Source of the DNA: Sphingobacteriales bacterium
Lineage (GTDB): Bacteria; Bacteroidota; Bacteroidia; Sphingobacteriales; Sphingobacteriaceae
DNA length: 41,484 nt
NCBI GenBank assembly: GCA_013298995.1
Contig: JAAFJW010000009.1
Span: 1 to 41,484, forward strand
Reading direction: 5' to 3'
Positions 1 through 38,000 of the stretch are shown here, piece after piece. The notes under the pieces are model-generated. The model did not search any database, had not been told where the DNA came from, and worked only from the letters and a program-made list of their open reading frames with translations. Numbering within the stretch: position 1 is the first letter of the stretch; the number at the start of each line of letters is the position of its first letter. The translations under genes were made by a program, and so were the position numbers.

Positions 1-98
1 AAGCAGCTTTACGCCAACCGCAGGAAATTTTAGAGGAAATGAAAGCCCTTGACGAAGAAAGTGTCGATATTTTAAATTCAATTTTGGAACTGATATGA
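1..98 (+). CDS. hsdM: 3' end of upstream gene, probably type I methyltransferase subunit HsdM (partial)
   Basis: An open frame runs in from the window edge (first complete codon at 3) and stops at the TGA at 96-98, giving about 31 residues ending in ILNSILELI. Its stop overlaps the start of the next gene in an ATGA arrangement. The tail is acidic and coiled-coil-like. With hsdS and hsdR downstream, the missing partner of this type I system is the N6-adenine methyltransferase HsdM, so I infer that this is its C-terminus. No catalytic motif is visible in the fragment, so the identity rests on context. The last 32 bases before and through the stop recur at the end of the next gene (912-945). Confidence 0.5.
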   Translation, partial: AALRQPQEILEEMKALDEESVDILNSILELI

Positions 99-100
99 AA
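67..100 (+). repeat. 34-bp direct repeat, left copy (flanks rhuM-like gene)
   Basis: This 34-bp segment covers the last codons of the upstream gene, its stop and the ATGAAA start of the next gene. It matches 912-945 at 32 of 34 positions. The two copies lie 845 bp apart and bracket the rhuM-like gene. Confidence 0.85.
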
Positions 101-943
101 GATGAAATTATTTTATATCGCCCAAATGAACTTGCCGAACACATTGAAGTGCGACTTGATGAAGAAAAGGAAACCGTTTGGCTAACTCAAAATCAAATAG
201 CAGAATTGTTTCAACGGGACAGAACGGTAATTACCAAACACATACGAAATGTTTTTGCTACCGATGAATTAGATGAAAAAAGCAATGTGCAAAAAATGCA
301 CATTCCTAATTCTGACAAACCTGTTGTTTTTTATAATCTTGATGTGATTTTATCAGTTGGTTACAGAGTAAACTCTAAGCAGGGAACACAATTTCGCCAA
401 TGGGCTACGCAACGCCTTAAAGACTATTTGCTAAAAGGATATGCCATCAACAACCGAATGAACCGAATGGAGGACAATTTAGAAGCCATAAAAAGCAAAG
501 TAAACGAAATAGACCTACAAATAAGTACACACCTTATACCTACACAAGGCGTGTTTTTTGATGGGCAGGTGTTTGATGCTTATGTGCTTGCTTCAAAAAT
601 AATTAGTACAGCCAAAAAATCAATAGTACTGATAGATAATTATGTTGATGAAACGGTGCTAGTGCATTTAAGTAAAAAACATAAAAATGCAACCGTAACC
701 ATATTGACTAAAACCATAAGCAAACAACTGGAACTGGATGTGCAAAAAGCCAATGCACAATACCCTACTATTACCATAAAACAGTTTACCCAAAGCCACG
801 ACCGCTTTTTGATTATAGATGAAAAAGAAGTGTATCATTTGGGAGCATCTTTAAAAGACCTAGGCAAAAAATGGTTTGCCTTTTCTAAAATGGATAAAAG
901 CTCGGTACAGAATATTTTAAACTCAATATTGGAACTGATATGA
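95..943 (+). CDS. RhuM-family protein with PLD-like C-terminal domain
   Basis: The 282-residue protein has an N-terminal domain of about 120 residues typical of the RhuM ('virulence protein') family. It contains the segment WLTQNQIAELFQRDRTVITKHI (helix-turn-helix-like, residues 29-50) and an FRQWATQRLKDY motif near 100-111. A short coiled coil (about 120-145) leads into a phospholipase-D-like domain (about 150-282). In that domain H235-x-R237-x4-D242 occupies the place of the HKD motif, so the Lys is replaced by Arg. RhuM genes commonly occur inside hsdM-hsdS-hsdR loci; their molecular role is not established. Start and stop are each in 4-nt ATGA overlaps with the flanking genes, so translation is coupled. 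Its last codons duplicate those of the upstream gene. Confidence 0.8.
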   Translation: MKDEIILYRPNELAEHIEVRLDEEKETVWLTQNQIAELFQRDRTVITKHIRNVFATDELDEKSNVQKMHIPNSDKPVVFYNLDVILSVGYRVNSKQGTQFRQWATQRLKDYLLKGYAINNRMNRMEDNLEAIKSKVNEIDLQISTHLIPTQGVFFDGQVFDAYVLASKIISTAKKSIVLIDNYVDETVLVHLSKKHKNATVTILTKTISKQLELDVQKANAQYPTITIKQFTQSHDRFLIIDEKEVYHLGASLKDLGKKWFAFSKMDKSSVQNILNSILELI

Positions 944-945
944 AA
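912..945 (+). repeat. 34-bp direct repeat, right copy (flanks rhuM-like gene)
   Basis: Second copy of the segment at 67-100, with two substitutions. It forms the 3' end of the rhuM-like gene and the ATGAAA start of hsdS, so both genes end in the same peptide (ILNSILELI) and both hand over to an overlapping ATG. Confidence 0.85.
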
Positions 946-2178
946 CAAGGTTGGGAATTAAAAAAGTTGGGAGAAATCTTATCTATTGAACGTGGTGGTT
1001 CTCCACGACCAATAGAAAAATATATGACCAATTCACCTGATGGAATAAATTGGATTAAAATTTCAGATGCAACTGCCTCTGATAAATATATCTATGAAAC
1101 AAAAGAGAAAATAACAAAAGACGGTTTGCATAAAACAAGAGTTGTAAACGAAGGAGATTTTATACTTTCCAATTCAATGAGTTTTGGAAGACCATATATA
1201 ATGAAAACAACTGGGTGTATTCATGACGGTTGGCTTGTATTAAAACAGAATGGTAAAAAGATATTTGAAACTGAATTTCTTTACTACTTATTATCCTCAC
1301 CATTTGTGTTTCAGCAATTCAATTCCAAGGCGGCTGGATCAACAGTTCGTAACTTGAATATTTCATTGGTAAGTTCTGTTGATGTTCCCATTCCACCCCT
1401 TCCCGAGCAACAACGCATCGTAGCCATATTAGATGAAGCCTTTGCTGACATAGCCAAGGCAAAAGCTAATGCCGAACAAAACCTCAAAAACGCCAAAGAA
1501 CTTTTTGAAAGTTATTTGCAAGGGGTGTTTGAAAATAAAGGTGAAGGTTGGGAAGAGAAAACTTTGGGGGAAGTTTTAGTGAAAACTGAAACCGTTGACC
1601 CAACAAAAAAGCCAAACGAAGAATTTACTTATTTAGATGTTTCAAGTGTAAATAAAGAAACAAAAGAAATTGAAAACGCAACAGTTTTGCTTGGCAAAGA
1701 TGCACCAAGCCGAGCAAGAAAATTAGTAAAAACTAATGATGTAATTTTTGCAACCGTAAGACCAACACACAGCAGAGTTGCTTTAATAACAGAAGAATAC
1801 GATGAACAAGTTTGTAGCACTGGTTACTTTGTTTTAAGAGCAAAAGAATTTCTAAGCAATAATTTAGTTTACTATTTCCTTTTGACTTATAGTTTCAATA
1901 AACAAATGGAAAAACTTCAAAAAGGTGCAAGTTATCCAGCGGTAACAGATAGCGAAGTGAAAGGCATTTATATTTCATTTCCAAAATCATTAAAGGTCCA
2001 ACAAACCATCGTTCAAAAACTTGATGCCCTATCCACTGAAACCAAAAAACTAGAAGCCATTTATCAGCAAAAAATAAATGATTTAGAAGAACTGAAAAAA
2101 TCCGTTTTGCAAAAGGCGTTTGCAGGAGAGTTGAAAATGTCTGAATTAGGATTTGATGGATTAAAAGATGATAGATAG
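940..2178 (+). CDS. hsdS: Type I restriction-modification specificity subunit HsdS
   Basis: The 412-residue protein shows the standard HsdS layout. Target-recognition domain 1 spans about 1-150, followed by a conserved coiled-coil region beginning at LPEQQRIVAILDEAFADI (about 155-200). Target-recognition domain 2 spans about 205-345, followed by a second coiled-coil region with VQQTIVQKLDALS and LEELKKSVLQKAFAGEL. The two TRDs read the two halves of a bipartite DNA site and the helices set their spacing. The protein assembles with HsdM and HsdR in the cytoplasm. The ATG overlaps the stop of the rhuM-like gene (ATGA). Length is normal for a complete two-TRD HsdS. The recognition sequence cannot be predicted from sequence alone. 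Confidence 0.95.
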   Translation: MKQGWELKKLGEILSIERGGSPRPIEKYMTNSPDGINWIKISDATASDKYIYETKEKITKDGLHKTRVVNEGDFILSNSMSFGRPYIMKTTGCIHDGWLVLKQNGKKIFETEFLYYLLSSPFVFQQFNSKAAGSTVRNLNISLVSSVDVPIPPLPEQQRIVAILDEAFADIAKAKANAEQNLKNAKELFESYLQGVFENKGEGWEEKTLGEVLVKTETVDPTKKPNEEFTYLDVSSVNKETKEIENATVLLGKDAPSRARKLVKTNDVIFATVRPTHSRVALITEEYDEQVCSTGYFVLRAKEFLSNNLVYYFLLTYSFNKQMEKLQKGASYPAVTDSEVKGIYISFPKSLKVQQTIVQKLDALSTETKKLEAIYQQKINDLEELKKSVLQKAFAGELKMSELGFDGLKDDR

Positions 2179-2262: not shown

Positions 2263-2691
2263 ATGAAACACGAAGAAATTACCCATAAAATAATTGGTTG
2301 TGCTATGAAGGTTCATAGCACCTTAGGCAATGGCTTTCAAGAAGTGATTTATCAACGGGCATTAGCTATTGAAATGGATAAGCAAGGTATGGGCTTTCAA
2401 CGTGAAATGGAAATGACTATCTTTTATGAAAGTATAGACATTGGAACACGCAGGGTTGACTTCTTTGTGGAAGAAAATATAATGGTAGAACTTAAAGCAT
2501 TGATAAAACTGGAAGATGTGCATTTGGCTCAAGCAATGAATTACTGCCAAGCATATAATTTGCCAATAGGATTACTGATAAATTTTGGAGCAAAAAGTCT
2601 TGAATTTAAAAGGGTTTATAATGTCAATCACCCGGACAACAAAGAGTATATCAAGAATAATCCTAAAATCATCAAATCCGAAAAATCTTAA
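2263..2691 (+). CDS. GxxExxY-family protein (PD-(D/E)xK-like)
   Basis: The 142-residue protein has the family signature near its N-terminus: LGNGFQEVIYQRAL (residues about 21-34) fits G-x-x-E-x-x-Y with Gln-Glu-Val-Ile-Tyr. It then carries RVDFFVEENIMVELKA (about 64-79), where Asp and the E-x-K triad resemble the core of PD-(D/E)xK nucleases. The family is common in Bacteroidota and other environmental bacteria and has no established function. It sits between hsdS and the AlbA_2/HATPase gene inside a restriction locus. Its 3' end overlaps the right copy of a 39-bp direct repeat, so the last codons (about NNPKIIKSEKS) are encoded by repeat sequence. That pattern suggests the gene travels as a cassette. 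Confidence 0.85.
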   Translation: MKHEEITHKIIGCAMKVHSTLGNGFQEVIYQRALAIEMDKQGMGFQREMEMTIFYESIDIGTRRVDFFVEENIMVELKALIKLEDVHLAQAMNYCQAYNLPIGLLINFGAKSLEFKRVYNVNHPDNKEYIKNNPKIIKSEKS

Positions 2692-2700
2692 TTCTGACAA
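2662..2700 (+). repeat. Imperfect 39-bp direct repeat, right copy (overlaps GxxExxY 3' end)
   Basis: Matches 2200-2238 at 32 of 39 positions. It spans the final ten codons and stop of the GxxExxY gene and runs to the first base of the next start codon. Confidence 0.7.
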
Positions 2701-4145
2701 TGAACGACCAACAACTCATAGAATTATTAAACGAATTGGTGAAACAACCCATCGAAAGTGAGTGGGTGGAGTTTAAACTCAATTTTCATTCGGAGCAAGA
2801 AATTGGCGAACGAATTTCGGCATTGGCAAATGGCGCAGCTATTCATAATCAAGAATTTGGGTATTTGGTGTTTGGCATAGAAGACAAAACACATATTATA
2901 AAAGGCACTACATTTAAACCCAAACAACATAAAAAAGGAAACGAAGAATTGGAGCATTGGCTGGCACAACGCCTCGACCCAAGAATAGATTTCCGCATAC
3001 ATGAATTTGCCTACGATGCTACTCGACAAATTGCTGTTTTTGTAATTCCTGCTACCCAAAACCGCCCAATTGATTTCTTTCATCATGCCTACATCAGAGT
3101 TGGAAGCATTACCCGAAAACTTTCTGAGTTTCCCGATAAAGAAGCTAAAATTTGGCGTAAAAAATCAAAACCGTATGAGCAAGAAATAGCAAAAGACAAT
3201 CTAAATGCAAGCGATGTTATTCGATTGCTAAGTACCGAAACCTATTTCGATTTAATGAAATTGCCTTACCCATCCAATCAAAATGGAGTAATTGAAAAAT
3301 TTATTACTGAAAATTTGGTGGTTAAATCTCGTGGCTATGCCATTACCAATCTTGGAGCAATTTTGTTCGCAAAGAGCTTACCCGAATTTGAAACCGTTGA
3401 GCGTAAATCAGTTCGTGTAATCGTGTATAAAGGCAAAAACAAAGTAGAAACAGTTCGTGAACAAATTGGAGCTAAAGGTTATGCTTTGGGATTTTTAGGT
3501 TTGGTAGATTGGATAAATAGCCAACTGCCAGCAAACGAAGAAATAGGAAAAGCATTGCGGAAAGAATCTCGAATGTACCCCGAAATAGCTATCAGAGAGT
3601 TAGTGGCAAACGCACTTATTCATCAAGATTTAGCTGTTAAAGGGTTTCCAATGATAGAAGTGTTTAGCGACAGGATAGAAATTTCCAATCCTGGAAATCC
3701 ACTCATTACACCCGACAGATTTATTGATTCTTACATTTCGAGAAACGAAAAATTGGCGGATTTAATGAGACGAATGGGATTTTGTGAAGAGAAAGGAAGC
3801 GGATTGGATAAGGTGATTTTTTACAATGAATTGTATCAGTTGCCGCCTATAAATGTAATTACCGATGAAAACCGAACACGAGTAATTATTTACAGTTACA
3901 AATCGCTAAACGAGTTAGACAAAAGAGAAAAAATCAGAGCTTGCTATCAGCATTCATGCTTAAAGTGGGTTTCAAACGAAAAAATGACCAATCAGAGTTT
4001 AAGAGAACGATTCCAAATTGAAGACCGTAATTATTCTATTGCTTCACGAATAATTAGAGATGCCTTAGAAGAAAAAGTAATTAAAGAAGTTGACCCTGAA
4101 AATAAATCACGAAAATATGCCAGTTACACACCATTTTGGGCTTAA
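2700..4145 (+). CDS. AlbA_2 (Schlafen-like) / HATPase_c_4 putative DNA-binding transcriptional regulator
   Basis: The 481-residue protein starts with an AlbA_2 domain (about 15-150) containing ESEWVEFKLNF and a glycine-rich GYLVFGIEDK strand. A HATPase_c_4 region follows (about 295-375), with AIRELVANALIHQDL as the N-box and EEKGSGLDKVIF as a glycine motif. A C-terminal winged-helix-like segment (about 410-481) ends in KYASYTPFWA. Proteins of this build are often annotated as ATP-binding or RecG-like transcriptional regulators and frequently sit inside type I restriction loci. Some AlbA_2 relatives are nucleases. Whether this one regulates hsd genes or acts as an effector is unknown. It starts 8 bp after the GxxExxY stop and is followed directly by the 11-bp-periodic array. 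Confidence 0.85.
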   Translation: MNDQQLIELLNELVKQPIESEWVEFKLNFHSEQEIGERISALANGAAIHNQEFGYLVFGIEDKTHIIKGTTFKPKQHKKGNEELEHWLAQRLDPRIDFRIHEFAYDATRQIAVFVIPATQNRPIDFFHHAYIRVGSITRKLSEFPDKEAKIWRKKSKPYEQEIAKDNLNASDVIRLLSTETYFDLMKLPYPSNQNGVIEKFITENLVVKSRGYAITNLGAILFAKSLPEFETVERKSVRVIVYKGKNKVETVREQIGAKGYALGFLGLVDWINSQLPANEEIGKALRKESRMYPEIAIRELVANALIHQDLAVKGFPMIEVFSDRIEISNPGNPLITPDRFIDSYISRNEKLADLMRRMGFCEEKGSGLDKVIFYNELYQLPPINVITDENRTRVIIYSYKSLNELDKREKIRACYQHSCLKWVSNEKMTNQSLRERFQIEDRNYSIASRIIRDALEEKVIKEVDPENKSRKYASYTPFWA

Positions 4146-4149
4146 TAGT

Positions 4150-4301
4150 TTATTTGATGGTTATTTGATAACCTCAAAAATCTTATGTGATGGTTATGTG
4201 ATTAGAAAGCCTAACCAAAGACATAAAACATTGAATATCAATAGTTTTTTATGTGATGGTTATGTGATTGCAGCCAATTTCTTATTTGATGGTTATTTGA
4301 T
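4150..4301 (+). repeat. 11-bp-periodic repeat array ahead of hsdR
   Basis: Four 20-bp elements lie at 4150-4169, 4183-4202, 4249-4268 and 4282-4301. Each is a 9-mer repeated after a GG spacer (9+2+9). The outer two use TTATTTGAT and the inner two TTATGTGAT, so both halves of an element always carry the same base at the variable position. Element starts are separated by 33, 66 and 33 bp, and all eight half-sites fall on one 11-bp register, close to one DNA turn. The array begins 4 bp after the AlbA_2/HATPase stop and ends 22 bp before the hsdR start. A binding array for a regulator is the simplest reading. One frame translates the elements as L-F/C-D-G-Y-L/V-I repeats, which I consider secondary. 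Confidence 0.85.
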
Positions 4302-4323
4302 TTTAAAGTAAAGACGATAAAAA

Positions 4324-6705
4324 ATGAACGAAGCAGAAACAAGAGCAGAACTCATAGACCCAAAGCTAAAAGCTTGTGGTTGGGGCGTTGTGGAGGGCTC
4401 AAAAATCCTTCGTGAATACAACATTACCGCAGGTAAAATTCAAATAGGTGGCATAAGAGCAAAAAAACTTACTGCCGATTATGTGCTGGTTTACAAAGGC
4501 ATTAAACTGGCAACTGTAGAAGCCAAAAGCGATGAATTAGGAGTTGGCGAAGGTGTGGCACAAGCCAAGCAATATGCCGAAAAACTAAATTTAGAAACCA
4601 CATACAGCACCAACGGAAAAAAAATTTACAGCATCTGTATGAAAACAGGCGTTGAAAATTTGGTTGCAGATTACCTAACACCCGAACAACTTTGGAACAA
4701 AACCTTTGCCGAACAAAATAATTGGAGAGAGCAGTTTTCAGCCATTCCGTTTGAAGACAAAAGCGGAACTTGGCAACCACGATTTTATCAAGAAATTGCA
4801 ATCAATAACACATTAGAAGCCGTTGCCAACAATGCCCAACGCATTTTATTAACCCTTGCCACAGGCACAGGAAAAACTGCAATTGCTTTTCAAATTGCTT
4901 GGAAATTATTTCAAACTCGTTGGAATTTAAAACGTGACGGCAGTCGCAGACCACGAATTTTATTTTTAGCCGACCGTAATATTTTAGCCAATCAAGCATT
5001 CAATGCTTTTTCAGCATTTCCCGAAGATGCTTTGGTTCGGATAAATCCGAAAGAAATTCGCAAAGACGGAAGAGTACCAACAAACGGCAGCATTTTCTTT
5101 ACCATCTTTCAAACTTTTATGACCAATGCTAAAGTTGCTAAGACAATAGAAAATAAAGAGCCGTTAAATTTAGCAGCAGAGCCAAGCGTAGCATACAAAA
5201 CCGAACAATACAATTTTGGACAATATCCGAGAGACTATTTTGATTTTATCATCATTGACGAGTGCCACCGTGGTGGAGCAAACGATGAAGGAAATTGGAG
5301 AGGAATTTTAGAATATTTTTCGCCAGCCGTTCAATTGGGTTTAACTGCAACACCAAAACGCAAAGACAATGTTGATACCTATAAATATTTTGGCGAGCCT
5401 GTTTATATTTATTCACTCAAAGACGGTATCAATGACGGTTTCTTAACGCCATTCAAAGTAAAACGCATCAAAACAACGCTTGACGATTATATCTACACAA
5501 GCGATGACCAAATAATTGAAGGCGAAATTGAAGAAGGAAAACTATACACCGAACCCGATTTCAACCGAATAATTGAGATAAAAGCAAGAGAGGCAAAACG
5601 TGTTCAGTTATTCATGGATGATGCCAACCAAAAAGAAAAGGCAATTATTTTTTGTGCTACACAAGACCACGCTACAGCAGTTCGTGATTTGGTAAACCAA
5701 TACAAAAAAAGCAACGACCCAAATTATTGTGTTCGTGTAACTGCAAACGATGGAGAAATTGGCGAACAGTTTTTGAGAGAGTTCCAAGACAACGAAAAAA
5801 CAATCCCAACCATTTTAACCACTTCGCAAAAACTTTCAACAGGAGTTGATGCAAGAAATATTCGCAACATAGTTTTGATGCGACCAGTAAACTCAATGAT
5901 AGAGTTTAAGCAAATAGTAGGGCGAGGCACACGTCTGTTTGATGGCAAAGACTTTTTTACCATTTATGATTTTGTAGATGCTTACCAAAAATTTAATGAT
6001 ATAGAATGGGATGGGCCACCATTGGATCCCGAACCATCAGACCCAAAGCCACCAACACCTCCTAAAGAACCGAAAGAGCCGACAGGTGATGAAGGAGGAG
6101 AAAAAGAAAAACGCAAACGCATTAAAGTAAAACTCAAAGACGGAAAGGAACGTGAAATACAATCAATGATTTCTACTTCGTTTTGGAGTGCAGACGGCAA
6201 ACCAATTTCAGCAGAAGAATTTTTAAATAATTTGTTTGGCGAATTGCCAAACCTTTTCAAAAGTGAAGATGAATTGCGAACACTTTGGAGCAATCCAATT
6301 ACTAGACGAACACTATTAGAAAAATTAGACGCAGCAGGTTTTGGAAAAGAAGAACTGACCACTTTGCAAAAACTTATTGATGCTGAAAAAAGCGACTTGT
6401 TTGATGTGTTGGAATATGTGTTTAACAGCAACATAAAACCAATGACAAGAGAAGCAAGAGTTGCAGCAGCACAAGCGACAATCTTTGCATTGCTTAACGA
6501 CAAACAAAAAGAGTTTATAGAATTTGTATTGAGTAAATACGTTGAAACAGGCGTTGAGGAACTTGACCAAGAGAAACTACCAATCTTGCTGACAAATAAA
6601 TATCAATCGTTAGAAGATGCAAAAGACATTTTGGGTGACGTTGCAAATATCAGCAAACTGTTTATAGAATTTCAACAGCATTTATACAAACAGAAAGTAG
6701 CGTAA
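4324..6705 (+). CDS. hsdR: Type I restriction endonuclease subunit R HsdR
   Basis: The 793-residue motor and nuclease subunit has an N-terminal PD-(D/E)xK nuclease core with D52 and E66-A-K68. This is followed by a superfamily 2 helicase: Walker A LATGTGKT (about 178-185), DECH box at 312-315, motif III LTATPKR (about 340), and motif VI QIVGRGTRLF (about 531-540). An unusual proline- and lysine-rich linker (about 563-605) precedes a C-terminal EcoEI-type HsdR domain (about 610-793). The enzyme uses ATP to translocate DNA and cuts at a distance when HsdS-bound sites are unmethylated. It is read in the same direction as hsdS but separated from it by two accessory genes and the repeat array. Confidence 0.95.
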   Translation: MNEAETRAELIDPKLKACGWGVVEGSKILREYNITAGKIQIGGIRAKKLTADYVLVYKGIKLATVEAKSDELGVGEGVAQAKQYAEKLNLETTYSTNGKKIYSICMKTGVENLVADYLTPEQLWNKTFAEQNNWREQFSAIPFEDKSGTWQPRFYQEIAINNTLEAVANNAQRILLTLATGTGKTAIAFQIAWKLFQTRWNLKRDGSRRPRILFLADRNILANQAFNAFSAFPEDALVRINPKEIRKDGRVPTNGSIFFTIFQTFMTNAKVAKTIENKEPLNLAAEPSVAYKTEQYNFGQYPRDYFDFIIIDECHRGGANDEGNWRGILEYFSPAVQLGLTATPKRKDNVDTYKYFGEPVYIYSLKDGINDGFLTPFKVKRIKTTLDDYIYTSDDQIIEGEIEEGKLYTEPDFNRIIEIKAREAKRVQLFMDDANQKEKAIIFCATQDHATAVRDLVNQYKKSNDPNYCVRVTANDGEIGEQFLREFQDNEKTIPTILTTSQKLSTGVDARNIRNIVLMRPVNSMIEFKQIVGRGTRLFDGKDFFTIYDFVDAYQKFNDIEWDGPPLDPEPSDPKPPTPPKEPKEPTGDEGGEKEKRKRIKVKLKDGKEREIQSMISTSFWSADGKPISAEEFLNNLFGELPNLFKSEDELRTLWSNPITRRTLLEKLDAAGFGKEELTTLQKLIDAEKSDLFDVLEYVFNSNIKPMTREARVAAAQATIFALLNDKQKEFIEFVLSKYVETGVEELDQEKLPILLTNKYQSLEDAKDILGDVANISKLFIEFQQHLYKQKVA

Positions 6706-13511: not shown

Positions 13512-14082
13512 GAAAATAGCCATTATCGTTTTTGTAATGATTGCTGTATCGGCAATAATTACTTCTTGTAAGGATAAAAGAAGCCGAGGCTTAGAGTACG
13601 CCCCTAATATGTATGAGCCTATTGCCTATAACCCCGACCAAAAAAACGCAAATTTTGCTGATGGTAAAACCGCACAAACTCCCCCCAAGGGAACAAACCC
13701 TATTGGTTTTGCAAGGTTTGATTACCCCGATACCCGCGAAGGTTACGATGCTGCAAGCCTAGCGGCTGTTAATCCTTTGGTTAGAAATAAAAAGAATTTG
13801 GTAGAAGGGCAACAACTTTACCTTGCCATGTGTAGCCCTTGCCACGGCGATAAAGGCGCTGGTAACGGGCATATTGTTGAGTTGGGTAAGTACCCAGCAC
13901 CCCCATCGTATGCCAATGGTACATCATCACGTGGTGGTGCTATGAAAGATTTAACCGATGGTAAAATATACCACACCATACAATACGGCCTTAATTTAAT
14001 GGGCTCTTATGCTTCGCAGCTTTCGCCACAAGAACGCTGGAAAGTAGTTATGTATGTACACGAATTACAAACAATAAAATAA
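13504..14082 (+). CDS. actE: Alternative complex III subunit ActE, lipoprotein monoheme cytochrome c
   Basis: I place the start at the ATG at 13504, which gives 192 residues with a short lipoprotein signal (hydrophobic core then IITSC, Cys about residue 21). An in-frame ATG at 13462 would hide this signal behind 14 extra residues inside actD. The mature protein has one heme c site (CSPCH) in a region with HGDKGAGNGHI and a C-terminal VMYVHELQ helix, as in monoheme class I cytochromes c. In ACIII, ActE is the peripheral monoheme subunit near the exit toward the oxidase. It overlaps actD by 8 nt. Confidence 0.9.
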   Translation: MNKKIAIIVFVMIAVSAIITSCKDKRSRGLEYAPNMYEPIAYNPDQKNANFADGKTAQTPPKGTNPIGFARFDYPDTREGYDAASLAAVNPLVRNKKNLVEGQQLYLAMCSPCHGDKGAGNGHIVELGKYPAPPSYANGTSSRGGAMKDLTDGKIYHTIQYGLNLMGSYASQLSPQERWKVVMYVHELQTIK

Positions 14083-25565: not shown

Positions 25566-26360
25566 TTATAGGTTATTTCCTTTAGCCAAGCTATTTGCTA
25601 GCATTTGTAAAAATGGAAGTGCCTCATTATAATTTAATTCTTCATAATCAATTCCCAATCGCCTGATATTGTTATAATAAGTTTGATGATTGTTGTAATA
25701 GTTTTTTTCTGACTGAACAAACCAAGCATTTTTGCCTAATTTTTGAGACAAAAACCATTTTTCTAACAGTCTTGCTGTTCTGCCGTTTCCATCATCAAAG
25801 GCGTGAATTTTTACAAAAACCAAATGCACCATTGAAGCAAAAAATAAGGTTTCTTCAAAAGATAAATCCGTTTGAAGCAAAACCTCCACATCATTATAAA
25901 ACTGCTCCATTTCGAATTTTACTTTATCAGCAGAAGCTGCCACATATTCAATTTTTCCGTTTTGGGTTATTACAAACATATTGCCAACTCTAACCTTGCC
26001 TTGCTGTGCTTTTTTTAAAATGTGTTTGGTAATTTGCGAATGAGCTAAAGCTATATTTTTGGCGTTAAGTTTATTTTTTTGAGCAAATAAATAGGCGTCG
26101 TACAAATCATCAATTTTACGTGTATAATCTGGCAAGTATTTAATACCAAACCGCTTGTGCTTTATATAAGAATCCAACTCAATTTGTTCGCCTTCGATTT
26201 TGGAAGAAAATACAGCTGAAACCGAAGTGTAAAAGCTAAACGTATCTATACTCAATTCACTATCATTTAAAGCATCAAAATCTTTTTTTAGCAATGGGGC
26301 AACACCACTTCTGTATTGCTCCAATAAATCTGTTGGAATTATTTTTAAATCTAATTTCAT
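25566..26360 (-). CDS. Fic family protein (class II, N-terminal inhibitory motif)
   Basis: The 264-residue protein has a complete Fic motif, H186-A-F-D-D-G-N-G-R-T-A-R197, expected to transfer AMP to hydroxyl side chains of target proteins. An N-terminal S52-x3-E56-G57 fits the (S/T)xxxE(G/N) inhibitory motif of class II Fic proteins, whose Glu blocks productive ATP binding. The FVITQNGKIEYV flap segment (129-140) is also typical. The target is unknown. A short, frameshifted ORF ends in a TAATG overlap with its start (26360-26498), and crtI lies just upstream of that, so all three could be co-transcribed on the minus strand. Confidence 0.92.
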   Translation of the reverse strand: MKLDLKIIPTDLLEQYRSGVAPLLKKDFDALNDSELSIDTFSFYTSVSAVFSSKIEGEQIELDSYIKHKRFGIKYLPDYTRKIDDLYDAYLFAQKNKLNAKNIALAHSQITKHILKKAQQGKVRVGNMFVITQNGKIEYVAASADKVKFEMEQFYNDVEVLLQTDLSFEETLFFASMVHLVFVKIHAFDDGNGRTARLLEKWFLSQKLGKNAWFVQSEKNYYNNHQTYYNNIRRLGIDYEELNYNEALPFLQMLANSLAKGNNL

Positions 26361-27984: not shown

Positions 27985-28341
27985 ATATACTGTGAAGGTA
28001 AATCTAAAAAATTAGTTTTTTGTTTTGGGCTATTGTGATAAAAATTTTAGTGATTAACTAAATTTTTGGAGGAACTAAATTTTTGTAAACAGAATATTTG
28101 CCACTTAGATTGGTGTATTTGTGGCAAATAAATAAAGGCGAAGCCTTTGCGGGTAAAAAAAAACAGCATAATTATAGCCACCAATACACGAATATTGGCA
28201 ACAAAGATTTCTGTAAAGTTTTATTTGCGCCGAAACTTTAGTAAACTAATTTATTATAGTTTAATTTGGCTTCAAAAATTTAAAACATAAATAACAAAAA
28301 ACAAATTTTTTAAGCATATAAATCACTATTTAAAAAAATAC
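27985..28341. other. Divergent intergenic region between crtI and argB
   Basis: This 357-bp region carries no ORF. It contains two copies of AACTAAATTTTTG 17 bp apart (28056-28068 and 28073-28085), a perfect 10-bp inverted repeat (28095-28104 / 28121-28130), and an AAACTA/TAGTTT inverted repeat near 28243-28262. No clear TAnnTTTG promoter was found for either flanking gene. Confidence 0.6.
28095..28130. repeat. Perfect 10-bp inverted repeat, 16-nt loop
   Basis: TATTTGCCAC at 28095-28104 is matched by GTGGCAAATA at 28121-28130. It sits in the crtI-argB divergent region and could be an operator or an RNA hairpin in the argB leader. Confidence 0.6.
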
Positions 28342-35042: not shown

Positions 35043-38000
35043 ATGAATAAATTTTGTGCTGCCTTATTTTTATTTACCCAGCTGTGCCTATTAAGTTTTG
35101 GCCAACAAAGTATCAACAATAATTATAAAGAAGTAATACTTACACCCAAGCGGGCCGAAATGGTGCTTAATAATAAATGGCTTTTTCAGCCAGCTATAAA
35201 CCAAGCCACCGAAAACCCCTTAGCCGCTAATTGGGATAGCATACAAGTACCTTCATCTTGGTACTCCAAATTTGAGGTCGATTCGTTTAAAGCCAGCAAT
35301 ATCCAAAACCAGCAACAACTCAAAAACCTTTCAAGGGCATGGTACCAAACTACCGTATTTATCCCAGCCAACTGGAAAAATAACAGTACCATTTTACAAC
35401 TGTGCAAGGTTTCTACCGATGCCATTATTTACATAAATGGTAAGCAAGCAGGTACAATACAATGGTACACTGGCCAAGTAGATGTTTCTAAATACGTAAA
35501 ATACGGGCAGCAAAACCAAATACGCATATTGGTAATAGCTACCGCCAATGAGGGCGAAATCCCAGTATTAATGGGTACAGCCACCACACAAGTTACGTTT
35601 ACAAAAGCAACGCTTGAAACCCGGGGCATTACAGGCGATGTAATTTTATCATCACACCCAAAAAATACATTTATTAACGATGTATTTGTACAGCCATCAA
35701 TAAGGCAAAGCAAAGTGGCGTTGGATGTAGAAATTGTGGGCATAAAAAAAGCCGAAACACTTATGGTACAAGCCCAAATGTGTAACCAACAAGGCTTTGC
35801 CGAAAAAACATTTACAACAAGCTTAAAGGTATTGGCCAAAGATACCCAAACCGTAAAACTAGCTTTCAACTGGCAAAACCCCCGTTTATGGGATTTGGAT
35901 AAACCCGAATTATATACCCTAAAGCTCAAAATAGAAGGTAAAAATAGCATCAACGACGAGTATGCGCAGGAATTTGGCTTCCGCGAGTTTTGGATTGATG
36001 GAAAACACTTTTATCTCAACGGTAAAAAAATAAACCTTCGTCCGCATTTATTTGTAGGCGGTAATGGGATGGATGAATTGGTAGATGCCAGTATAGAGGG
36101 CATCCGCAAAAATGGTTTTAACATTAGCGAAATATGGCCCAATAATTTCGATAAACGAGGTTTTTTAGAACACTCGGAGCAAATGATGGCCCGGGCCGAT
36201 AAAAAAGGCTTTTTATTAATGGGTGTAGCCCTGCCTTTTATCGATTATTTGTTAGATAAAAGCTGGAAATTTCAGTGGGATAAACCCGAGGTAAAAATAG
36301 CCTACGAAAAACGTATGCTTATTGATTTACGCCGCAACCGTAACCACCCATCGGTGGTAATGTGGACCACATCGGGCAATTTTTTTGGCGATACGCAAGA
36401 TCAAAACCCCTTTAATATAGGCCGTACCAATTGGATAAAAAATAATCCACCGTTTCAAAAAAATGCCACTGCGGGTATCGAAGCCATTAATATTATCAAA
36501 AAAAACGACCCTACCCGCCCTGTTTTTACCCACCACGGTACTTATGTAGGCGATGTGCATACGCTTAATTTTTACCTCGGTTTTTCGCCCCTGCAAGAGC
36601 GGGAAGAGTGGATGTCGTTTTACTCCCAAAACGGGCAAATTCCTTTTATTGGGATAGAGTTTGGTACACCTTTGTATTGCGATTTTTTGCGTGGCCGCAA
36701 TGGTTTTGGCAGCAATATTAAAACCGAGCCTTTGATAACCGAATTTACAGCCGCTTATTTGGGCGATAAAGCCTATCAAACCGAGCCCTCGTATTATAAA
36801 AACTACATAAAAAATAATTTTATATCGGGGCAAACGTACCGAGAAATGGGGAGTTCGTCTATCGAAAAAAATTGGTCGTTCCAGCAATTACAAGCCCTAT
36901 TTACTAAAAATACTTGGCGCAGTTGGCGGGCTTACGATATGCCAGGCGGTATGCTACCTTGGGCAAGCGGACACGGCTACACCCGCACCGATAGTGCCAA
37001 TAAGCTAGTAAAAATGCCCCCTTTTACACTCGGGCGAAAAGGCTGGTATTATCCTACGGCCACCTACGCAGATATTTACGAAAAACAACAACCAGCCTAC
37101 ACCGTACAAGATGGCGGCAAGGCATTGGTACAAAACAATAATGCTACGCTGGCCTATATTGCAGGTGCTAGCCAGGCATTTACCGAAAAAGCGCACTCGT
37201 TTAGCCCCAGCCAAGTAGTCGAAAAACAGTTGTTCTTTTTTAATGATACCCGCCAAATACAAAAATGTGTATGGAATTACAGCGTTTCTGTAGCCGATAA
37301 AATTATCTCCCAAAACGCTGGCGAATGCTTGCTGCCTGTGGGCGATAAAAAAGCCGAACGTATTTTATTTACTATTCCTAATCAAATTACAGGCTTTAAA
37401 GCCGATGGCAACATTATTCTTCATGCCCAAATAGCGGGCATTAACCATAGCGATACCTTAAATTTTAGGGTTTTTAGTAAGCAAGCCATTACTGGCGATA
37501 GGCAAGTTTATGTTTTCGACCCTGTGGGTAAAACCAGCCAAATGCTTGTAAATTTGGGCTATATCTTAAAACCTTGGGCTGGCGAGGCCAATATTCCTTT
37601 ATTAATTATTGGCCGTGAGGTGCTTTCGCAGCAGTATAAATTACCATCGTCTTTGCAAGCATTTATACAAAACGGGGGCAAGGCAATTGTGTTTAATCAG
37701 CAAGATAGTGTGTTGGAAAAAAGTGGTTTTAGGGTAGCCAAATATGTTTCTCGCTACGTTTTCCCAATCAAAAATAACCCCATTACCCAGCAACTCGACG
37801 AGCTAGATTTACGCAACTGGGCAGGCACAGGTACTATAAATACCGCCTATCCCGATTATATGAACAATAACTACCAAAAATCGCCCGACGATTCGCCCAT
37901 TTACGGCTGGCACTGGGGCAACCGAGGGAGCGTAGCCACTAATGCCATAGAAAAACCACACCATAGCGGTTGGACACCTTTATTAGAATGCGAATTTGAT

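Follow-up and report, generated by a model that had tools for sequence, protein, structure and literature searches.

The stretch of Sphingobacteriales DNA analysed here (41,484 nucleotides, called the window) carries an array of short repeats between a gene for a SLFN_AlbA_2/HATPase_c_4 protein and hsdR. The question raised by this locus is what reads the array. An original prediction, made from sequence alone, proposed an operator for the winged-helix protein encoded upstream. We consider it very likely that this AlbA_2/winged-helix protein does read the array, which would serve as an operator within or ahead of defence operons, because the two are adjacent, the repeats are phased at 11 bp and residue 445 of the protein follows base 5 of the repeat. 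There are no binding or expression data. To our knowledge, this operator has not been reported before (open-access literature searched).

The array and its neighbouring genes

The RhuM, hsdS, PDDEXK_3, SLFN_AlbA_2/HATPase_c_4 and hsdR genes lie on a common strand, and the array sits in the 178-bp gap (4146-4323) between the stop codon of the AlbA_2 gene and the ATG of hsdR. The features, in window coordinates, are listed below; L173 is a locus encoding a relative of the window protein that is nearly identical outside the recognition helix.

95..943, + strand: RhuM-family gene, first of the operon part inside the window (Pfam PF13310)
940..2178, + strand: hsdS, same operon (Pfam Methylase_S)
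2263..2691, + strand: PDDEXK_3 nuclease-like gene, after hsdS and ahead of the regulator gene (Pfam PF13366)
2700..4145, + strand: predicted reader, 481 aa, SLFN_AlbA_2 + HATPase_c_4 + C-terminal winged helix (Pfam, AlphaFold)
4023..4070, + strand: codons for residues 442-457, the predicted recognition helix (helix in the AlphaFold model; covariation)
4032-4034, + strand: Tyr445 codon, within the predicted recognition helix
4150..4169, + strand: outer T-type pair 1, TTATTTGAT-GG-TTATTTGAT (exact match; also in L173)
4183..4202, + strand: inner G-type pair 1, TTATGTGAT-GG-TTATGTGAT (exact match; missing from L173)
4203..4248, + strand: 46-bp linker of the inner module (column counts, 38 bacterial elements)
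4224-4226, + strand: conserved TAA in the inner linker (column counts, 38 bacterial elements)
4230-4242, + strand: dyad ATTGAATATCAAT in the inner linker (column counts, 38 bacterial elements)
4249..4268, + strand: inner G-type pair 2 (exact match; 66 bp from inner pair 1)
4282..4301, + strand: outer T-type pair 2 (exact match; 132 bp from outer pair 1; also in L173)
4324..6705, + strand: hsdR, EcoAI/FtnUII family, next gene after the array (Pfam; NCBIfam restrict_EcoAI above its cut-off)

The phased array is real. Eight half-sites TTAT[T/G]TGAT start at 4150, 4161, 4183, 4194, 4249, 4260, 4282 and 4293, and 8/8 fall on a single 11-bp register. Together they make up four exact 9-GG-9 pairs, whose start-to-start steps are 33, 66 and 33 bp. 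Named by base 5 of the half-site, which is identical between the halves of all four pairs, the order along the array is T-G-G-T. The half-sites, pairs, steps and register of the original prediction were all confirmed by exact matches, as were its 178-bp gap before hsdR and its A-B-(gap)-B-A order. With up to three mismatches, the pair pattern occurs four times in the window, compared to a mean of 0.04 and a maximum of 1 in 100 dinucleotide shuffles. The whole genome contains six such matches, the four exact array pairs and two with three mismatches; a whole-genome search found no pair match beyond the array at two mismatches or fewer. No match to a Bacteroidota promoter consensus was found within the array, a point against the operator reading.

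The 9-mers could also be codons, forming a small peptide or repeat protein with an L-F/C-D-G-Y-L/V-I repeat. The frame is open throughout the window array, and in 23/38 two-pair elements against 9.7 expected from fully shuffled linkers. However, 15/38 of these elements contain a stop in the L-F/C-D-G-Y frame, and column-shuffled elements give a mean of 19.5 open frames, 63/500 shuffles reaching 23 or more. Moreover, 25 two-pair elements are spaced by a non-multiple of 3, and there is no in-frame ATG between the AlbA_2 stop and the array. The peptide reading, which the original prediction named as a refuting condition, thus fails on stops, column shuffles and spacings, and this explanation is practically ruled out. 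Mini-ORFs within the pairs (ATG-GTT-ATK-TGA) were dropped by inspection, because other half-site classes lack the ATG.

In the window protein, SLFN_AlbA_2 (PF04326; 70.7 bits, curated cut-off 25.3) and HATPase_c_4 are the only Pfam matches at E 0.001. The AlphaFold model has a pLDDT of 89.6. A separate model of the C-terminus (pLDDT 89.2) is ordered helix-helix-helix-strand-strand, and its top Foldseek matches are Fur, ZitR and other winged-helix proteins, none below E 0.001. Residues E19, E24 and K26 are invariant across 43 sequences. By analogy to the Schlafen RNase, these residues would be catalytic if the protein is a nuclease. The best full-length structural match is DIP2311 of Corynebacterium diphtheriae (3lmm; Foldseek E 1e-19), which is listed as uncharacterised. 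In a sequence comparison with the PDB, nothing else matches at E 0.001 (DIP2311, 1e-9).

Other repeats are present in the window. Two short tandem repeats with the consensus AAAAATCTT and AATTCAGACAAA lie at 2194-2253, in the intergenic stretch that separates hsdS from the PDDEXK_3 gene, and tandem repeats of period 21 and 17 lie away from the array at 25664-25704 and 28042-28083.

The element in other bacteria

Computation shows that the window array is one instance of a widespread element tied to SLFN_AlbA_2/HATPase_c_4/predicted winged-helix genes. The K-type motif (T or G at base 5) was found in at least 117 stretches in genome contigs. Taken together with the viral matches described below, removal of near-copies left 114 bacterial and 61 viral distinct loci. 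Equality of the T/G variant in both pair halves, also part of the original prediction, holds in the window and nearly everywhere else (112/114 distinct bacterial and 59/61 distinct viral pairs). Phased arrays, which were to be looked for at related loci, do exist there.

The geometry of the window recurs as well. Among 92 second pairs within 140 bp, 38 are 66 bp away and 13 are 65 bp away, with minor distance classes at 76-78, 86-89 and 97-101 bp. The offsets of exact half-sites have a best period of 11.0 bp (R 0.83; R 0.65 for the 42 outside the main peaks); phasing, like adjacency to the gene, is a computed result. In the bacterial loci, base 5 agrees in 56/56 comparisons of pairs 63-68 bp apart and differs in at least 14 comparisons at other spacings. 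The 46-bp linker of two-pair elements contains a conserved TAA and, near the second pair, a dyad TTGATnATCAA. Two particular layouts were also seen. Behind the AlbA_2 gene of L276, six pairs follow each other in exact 67-bp steps (2951-3305), the units being nearly identical, and in L164 and L233 a two-pair element separates two genes that by eye resemble the modification and restriction genes of a type III system.

A homologue of the AlbA_2 protein is present in 72/119 motif-selected genome loci (tblastn, E 1e-4), five of the 72 being just 23-31% identical. With one exception these genes are on the same strand as the motif, and they are mostly immediately upstream or downstream of it. The gene was also searched for independently of the motif in 296 genomes of the phylum, 321 of the class of a gammaproteobacterial search centre and 395 of a further class, where it was present in 23, 13 and 12 genomes, respectively (counts that include the search centres and the window's own genome). 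Within 200 bp of the 51 genes obtained with their C-terminus, a K-type pair was detected in 22 cases, any phased self-pair in 31 and either kind in 32. Control windows 600-800 bp away from the same genes gave no K-type pair, and one had either kind. No pair was detected automatically for 19/51 genes; several pair-negative loci show repeats of other sequence by eye.

Members of the family are encoded within defence operons (type I R-M and others), on plasmids and by some phages, with DUF1156/phospholipase-D anti-phage genes as well as type I R-M among their gene contexts. By eye, such repeats also accompany the AlbA_2 gene on Desulfosarcina, Providencia, Aliarcobacter and Pseudosulfitobacter plasmid records and, in weaker form, on a Burkholderia and two Cupriavidus plasmid records. 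Where the left gene is clear from simple ORF calls, 85/97 bacterial sites follow it in the same direction. The second pair is kept in 38/66 loci with the gene vs. 17/40 without it, only a slight difference (Mann-Whitney p 0.04), which weighs against the operator reading.

Residue 445, base 5 and the nested array

The covariation between protein and array, shown by computation, concerns one residue and one base. Over 99 loci, Tyr445 goes with G-type pairs only in 14/14 cases, and other residues go with T-type pairs only in 60/60; the remaining loci are 5 mixed ones and 20 that lack a K-type pair. The 14 include the same G locus two times (L141 = L209), and six of the 60 T loci match only with 2-3 mismatches. 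The association (Fisher 2e-15) is uncorrected for kinship. When mapped on a tree built from residues 1-425, the Tyr label has to change 11 times, and well-supported branches force 7 or more of these changes. Phylogenetically independent contrasts agree with the rule in 5/5 cases, with a p value of 0.0625 for the contrast test alone.

A later, motif-independent set of 25 loci was also compared with the rule. Its Tyr loci are L408 (G), L412 (inner G, outer T) and L418 (G, read by eye), and the non-Tyr loci with a K-type pair have T in 7/7 cases; wherever a locus was readable, it followed the rule. Outside base 5, the match between half-site class and residue 445 is imperfect. The half-site TTGCTTGAY is found with Arg or Gln at 445 in L268, L270, L389, L397 and L399, with Ser445 in L398 as the exception, and half-site classes shift with the AlbA_2 clade. 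In the proposed reading, residue 445, located where the predicted recognition helix starts, would read base 5 of the half-site, Tyr recognizing G and Ala or Ser recognizing T. This would provide a one-residue/one-base rule and a predicted DNA target for a large uncharacterised family, which is directly testable.

The T-G-G-T order of the window can be examined with the same rule. Between the window protein and that of L173, identity is 98.3% over residues 15-430 but only 64.7% over residues 436-470. L173 has Ala445 and the outer T pairs (T-66-T) without the G module. The window has Tyr445 and the same outer T pairs, plus a G-66-G module between them. In L412, where AlbA_2 is intact and residue 445 is Tyr, the 33-66-33 nesting is identical, with no mismatch in either half-site of the inner G pairs and with 2 and 1 mismatches in the outer T pairs. 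Nesting, which is a computed result, was also found in five loci (L158, L204, L236, L259 and L261). Based on the comparison of the window with L173 and on the nesting in L412, the inner module is assigned as the current operator and the outer one as older. The 'recent duplication' originally suggested for the A-B-B-A order is not the best account; a G module inside an older T module fits better.

Given a relative with Ala445 and T pairs only that is nearly identical outside the helix, the nesting in the window probably reflects a switch of specificity, in which the helix would have turned to the Tyr type and the G module would have been placed inside the older T module. The persistence of perfect T pairs in the window despite its Tyr-type protein is a point against the operator model, of which this switch is a part. 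If the switch is correct, the window and L173 represent a regulator-operator pair caught in the middle of a change of specificity, which is rarely seen.

The five nested loci just named are among six (L148, L158, L204, L236, L259 and L261) in which an IS200-like TnpA ORF of 149-153 aa occupies the position that AlbA_2 has in the window, with the array and hsdR retained; the ORF in L204 (125 aa) is cut by the contig end.

Such changes of neighbour bear on another explanation, that the array is a recombination site, with arm repeats and a core for a tyrosine recombinase or cassette system that swaps accessory genes beside hsdR. The pair-dyad-pair layout would suit this reading, as would the variable neighbour (AlbA_2, other AlbA paralogues, RhuM, IS200-like TnpA) next to a constant array and hsdR, and the presence of the element in viruses. 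On the other hand, no recombinase family common to the loci was found (ORF clustering by eye, without an integrase profile), this genome has a single site, and base 5 tracks the helix of the adjacent AlbA_2 protein. A recombination site is therefore considered very improbable.

Loci without the gene raise the possibility that the operator has another reader in many genomes, the AlbA_2 protein being one of several users of a common site. In 48 genomes (50 loci), the site is unaccompanied by a close homologue, and in 40 of these 48 no homologue was found anywhere at E 1e-40; many of the 48 are metagenome assemblies. There, the site adjoins hsdR, type III R-M, toxin-like and other genes, as judged by eye from ORFs. 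Some sites thus exist without this reader, or are read by another protein. Against a general role for other readers stand the residue-445/base-5 rule and the change of half-site classes with the AlbA_2 clade. In addition, some gene-less loci look like remnants, the last AlbA_2 codons persisting before the array in L204 and others. This reading is held to be unlikely.

Proposed mechanism, related systems and viral copies

The preferred model, a cognate operator with bridged pairs and a specificity switch, is likely as a whole, its physical binding and regulation being inferred. Each 9-mer would be the landing site of one winged helix, and a 9-GG-9 pair would carry two winged helices, spaced by a single turn and facing the same side of the DNA. 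Two such pairs, separated by about 66 bp (six turns) and flanking the dyad, would be bridged into one complex. This complex would control the transcription that runs into the following gene (hsdR in the window), and probably also that of the regulator itself. Binding, bridging, the sign of regulation and the roles of the ATPase and AlbA_2 domains are all inferences. The original suggestion of a balance between nuclease (hsdR) and methylase expression that is set by the array remains conjecture, also in its direction, without supporting data. With this geometry of paired sites, operators of the kind could be recognized in any genome.

Among the closest known systems is RptR, a repressor of type I R-M defence islands that is encoded with the type I R-M operon and binds three 9-bp direct repeats, regulator and site being conserved with type I R-M (PMC12255303). 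The window regulator is likewise encoded with a type I R-M operon and associated with 9-bp direct repeats. RptR, however, is a small regulator, whose minimal site is the palindrome TAGCTA in its own operon promoter (PMC12255303), whereas the window regulator has 481 residues with an AlbA_2/GHKL/winged-helix architecture and adjoins paired 9-mers at 11 bp, grouped into modules at a distance of about 66 bp that in most cases follow the regulator gene directly. TAGCTA is absent from 4146-4323.

BrxR/CapW WYL-domain regulators are found in BREX, CBASS and other defence operons (PMC9122588, PMC9122589, PMC9122601), a comparable case of a single regulator family associated with defence operons of different kinds; unlike them, the window protein has no WYL domain (Pfam, E 0.001). 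Two traits of defence-regulator operators are met by the array, gene linkage and residue-base covariation, while binding and an effect on transcription are inferred. In TIGR-Tas, an array of tandem short units also adjoins a protein gene, in bacteria and phages (PMC12045711). TIGR-Tas constant repeats carry variable guides; in the window, by contrast, it is the 9-mers that stay constant, and the search for a conserved RNA fold gave none.

In 2.9 million viral contigs, the exact motif with a free base 5 occurs in 102 stretches and the reversed pattern in none. The two free positions are T-T in 90, G-G in 11, G-T in 2 and T-C in 1. Eleven of the 61 distinct viral sites were excluded, as they lie within ORFs or in one exonuclease-gene cluster, where the motif is a coding coincidence (68 relatives examined). 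A further half-site lies 64-67 bp upstream in 12 of the 50 intergenic sites. The linker signal (z > 1.64) is present in 10/12 of these (mean z 2.95), compared to 1/38 of those without the half-site (mean z 0.02). For these 38 pairs, which lack a dyad signal, no claim is made. The 12 sites, which have the complete element (distal half-site, dyad and pair), are located on eleven contigs, and their records yielded no gene of the AlbA_2 type. Their neighbours include terminase, O-like replication protein, RusA resolvase, endolysin and DNA methyltransferase genes.

A homologue of the AlbA_2 protein was found in 0/101 viral loci (tblastn). HATPase_c_4 was detected in none of 49 whole viral records and in 5/14 control genomes, but fragments cannot show absence. 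A winged-helix profile found nothing in 50 viral records, which carries little weight as this search had no positive control. For named phages, a BLAST search with the array in 50,697 records returned only weak matches (33), of which none covered more than 21% of the query. AlbA_2 itself is present on a few phages; in L488 and L521 an array comes after the stop codon of the gene. A single pair-like repeat is seen in phage Musica, and satellite phage Javan328 has a repeat in front of the gene.

Other half-sites were scanned in the viral contigs as well. The scan with TTGCTTGAYNGTTGCTTGAY (at least 120 stretches vs. 2 for the reversed control) is unusable because 49/67 distinct sites lie inside ORFs. 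TAATTGAYGGNTAATTGAY gave 24 stretches (reversed control, 4), among them one or more repeated clusters that are probably coding, and TTATGTAACGGTTATGTAAC gave 2 stretches, without a control.

In tandem gene contexts, viral sites tend to oppose their flanking genes (24 against, 7 with), and bacterial sites tend to run with them. Orientation matters for a last alternative, in which the array acts as RNA, that is as a guide, an antitoxin or a 3'UTR regulator transcribed with the operon, by base pairing or by binding of the AlbA_2 domain. Such a reading would draw support from the strand bias of the bacterial sites (85/97 in the direction of the left gene), from the bias of the tandem viral contexts and from arrays made of near-identical 67-bp tandem units, as in L276. 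It is contradicted by the absence of consensus base pairs (0 in 38 elements), by fold z-scores of -2.06 to 1.51 (8 elements), by the lack of any Rfam match, by a spacing quantised at 11 bp and by the fact that base 5 tracks a residue of the DNA-recognition helix. We regard an RNA role as highly implausible.

With the operator reading retained, the viral copies may be decoys, the phage's own regulatory sites or relics of a lost gene, none of which is excluded. A bolder reading, which is no more than possible, is that viruses carry decoy operators against the host regulator, and that through this arms race helix residue and operator base have switched again and again. The nested T-G-G-T array would then be a host caught changing its code, and a phage could disarm restriction control with DNA alone. 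Complete elements of both types occur together on one 60.7-kb viral contig (IMGVR_UViG_3300033143_005582; L045, L099), the G-type at 13957 and the T-type at 35697.
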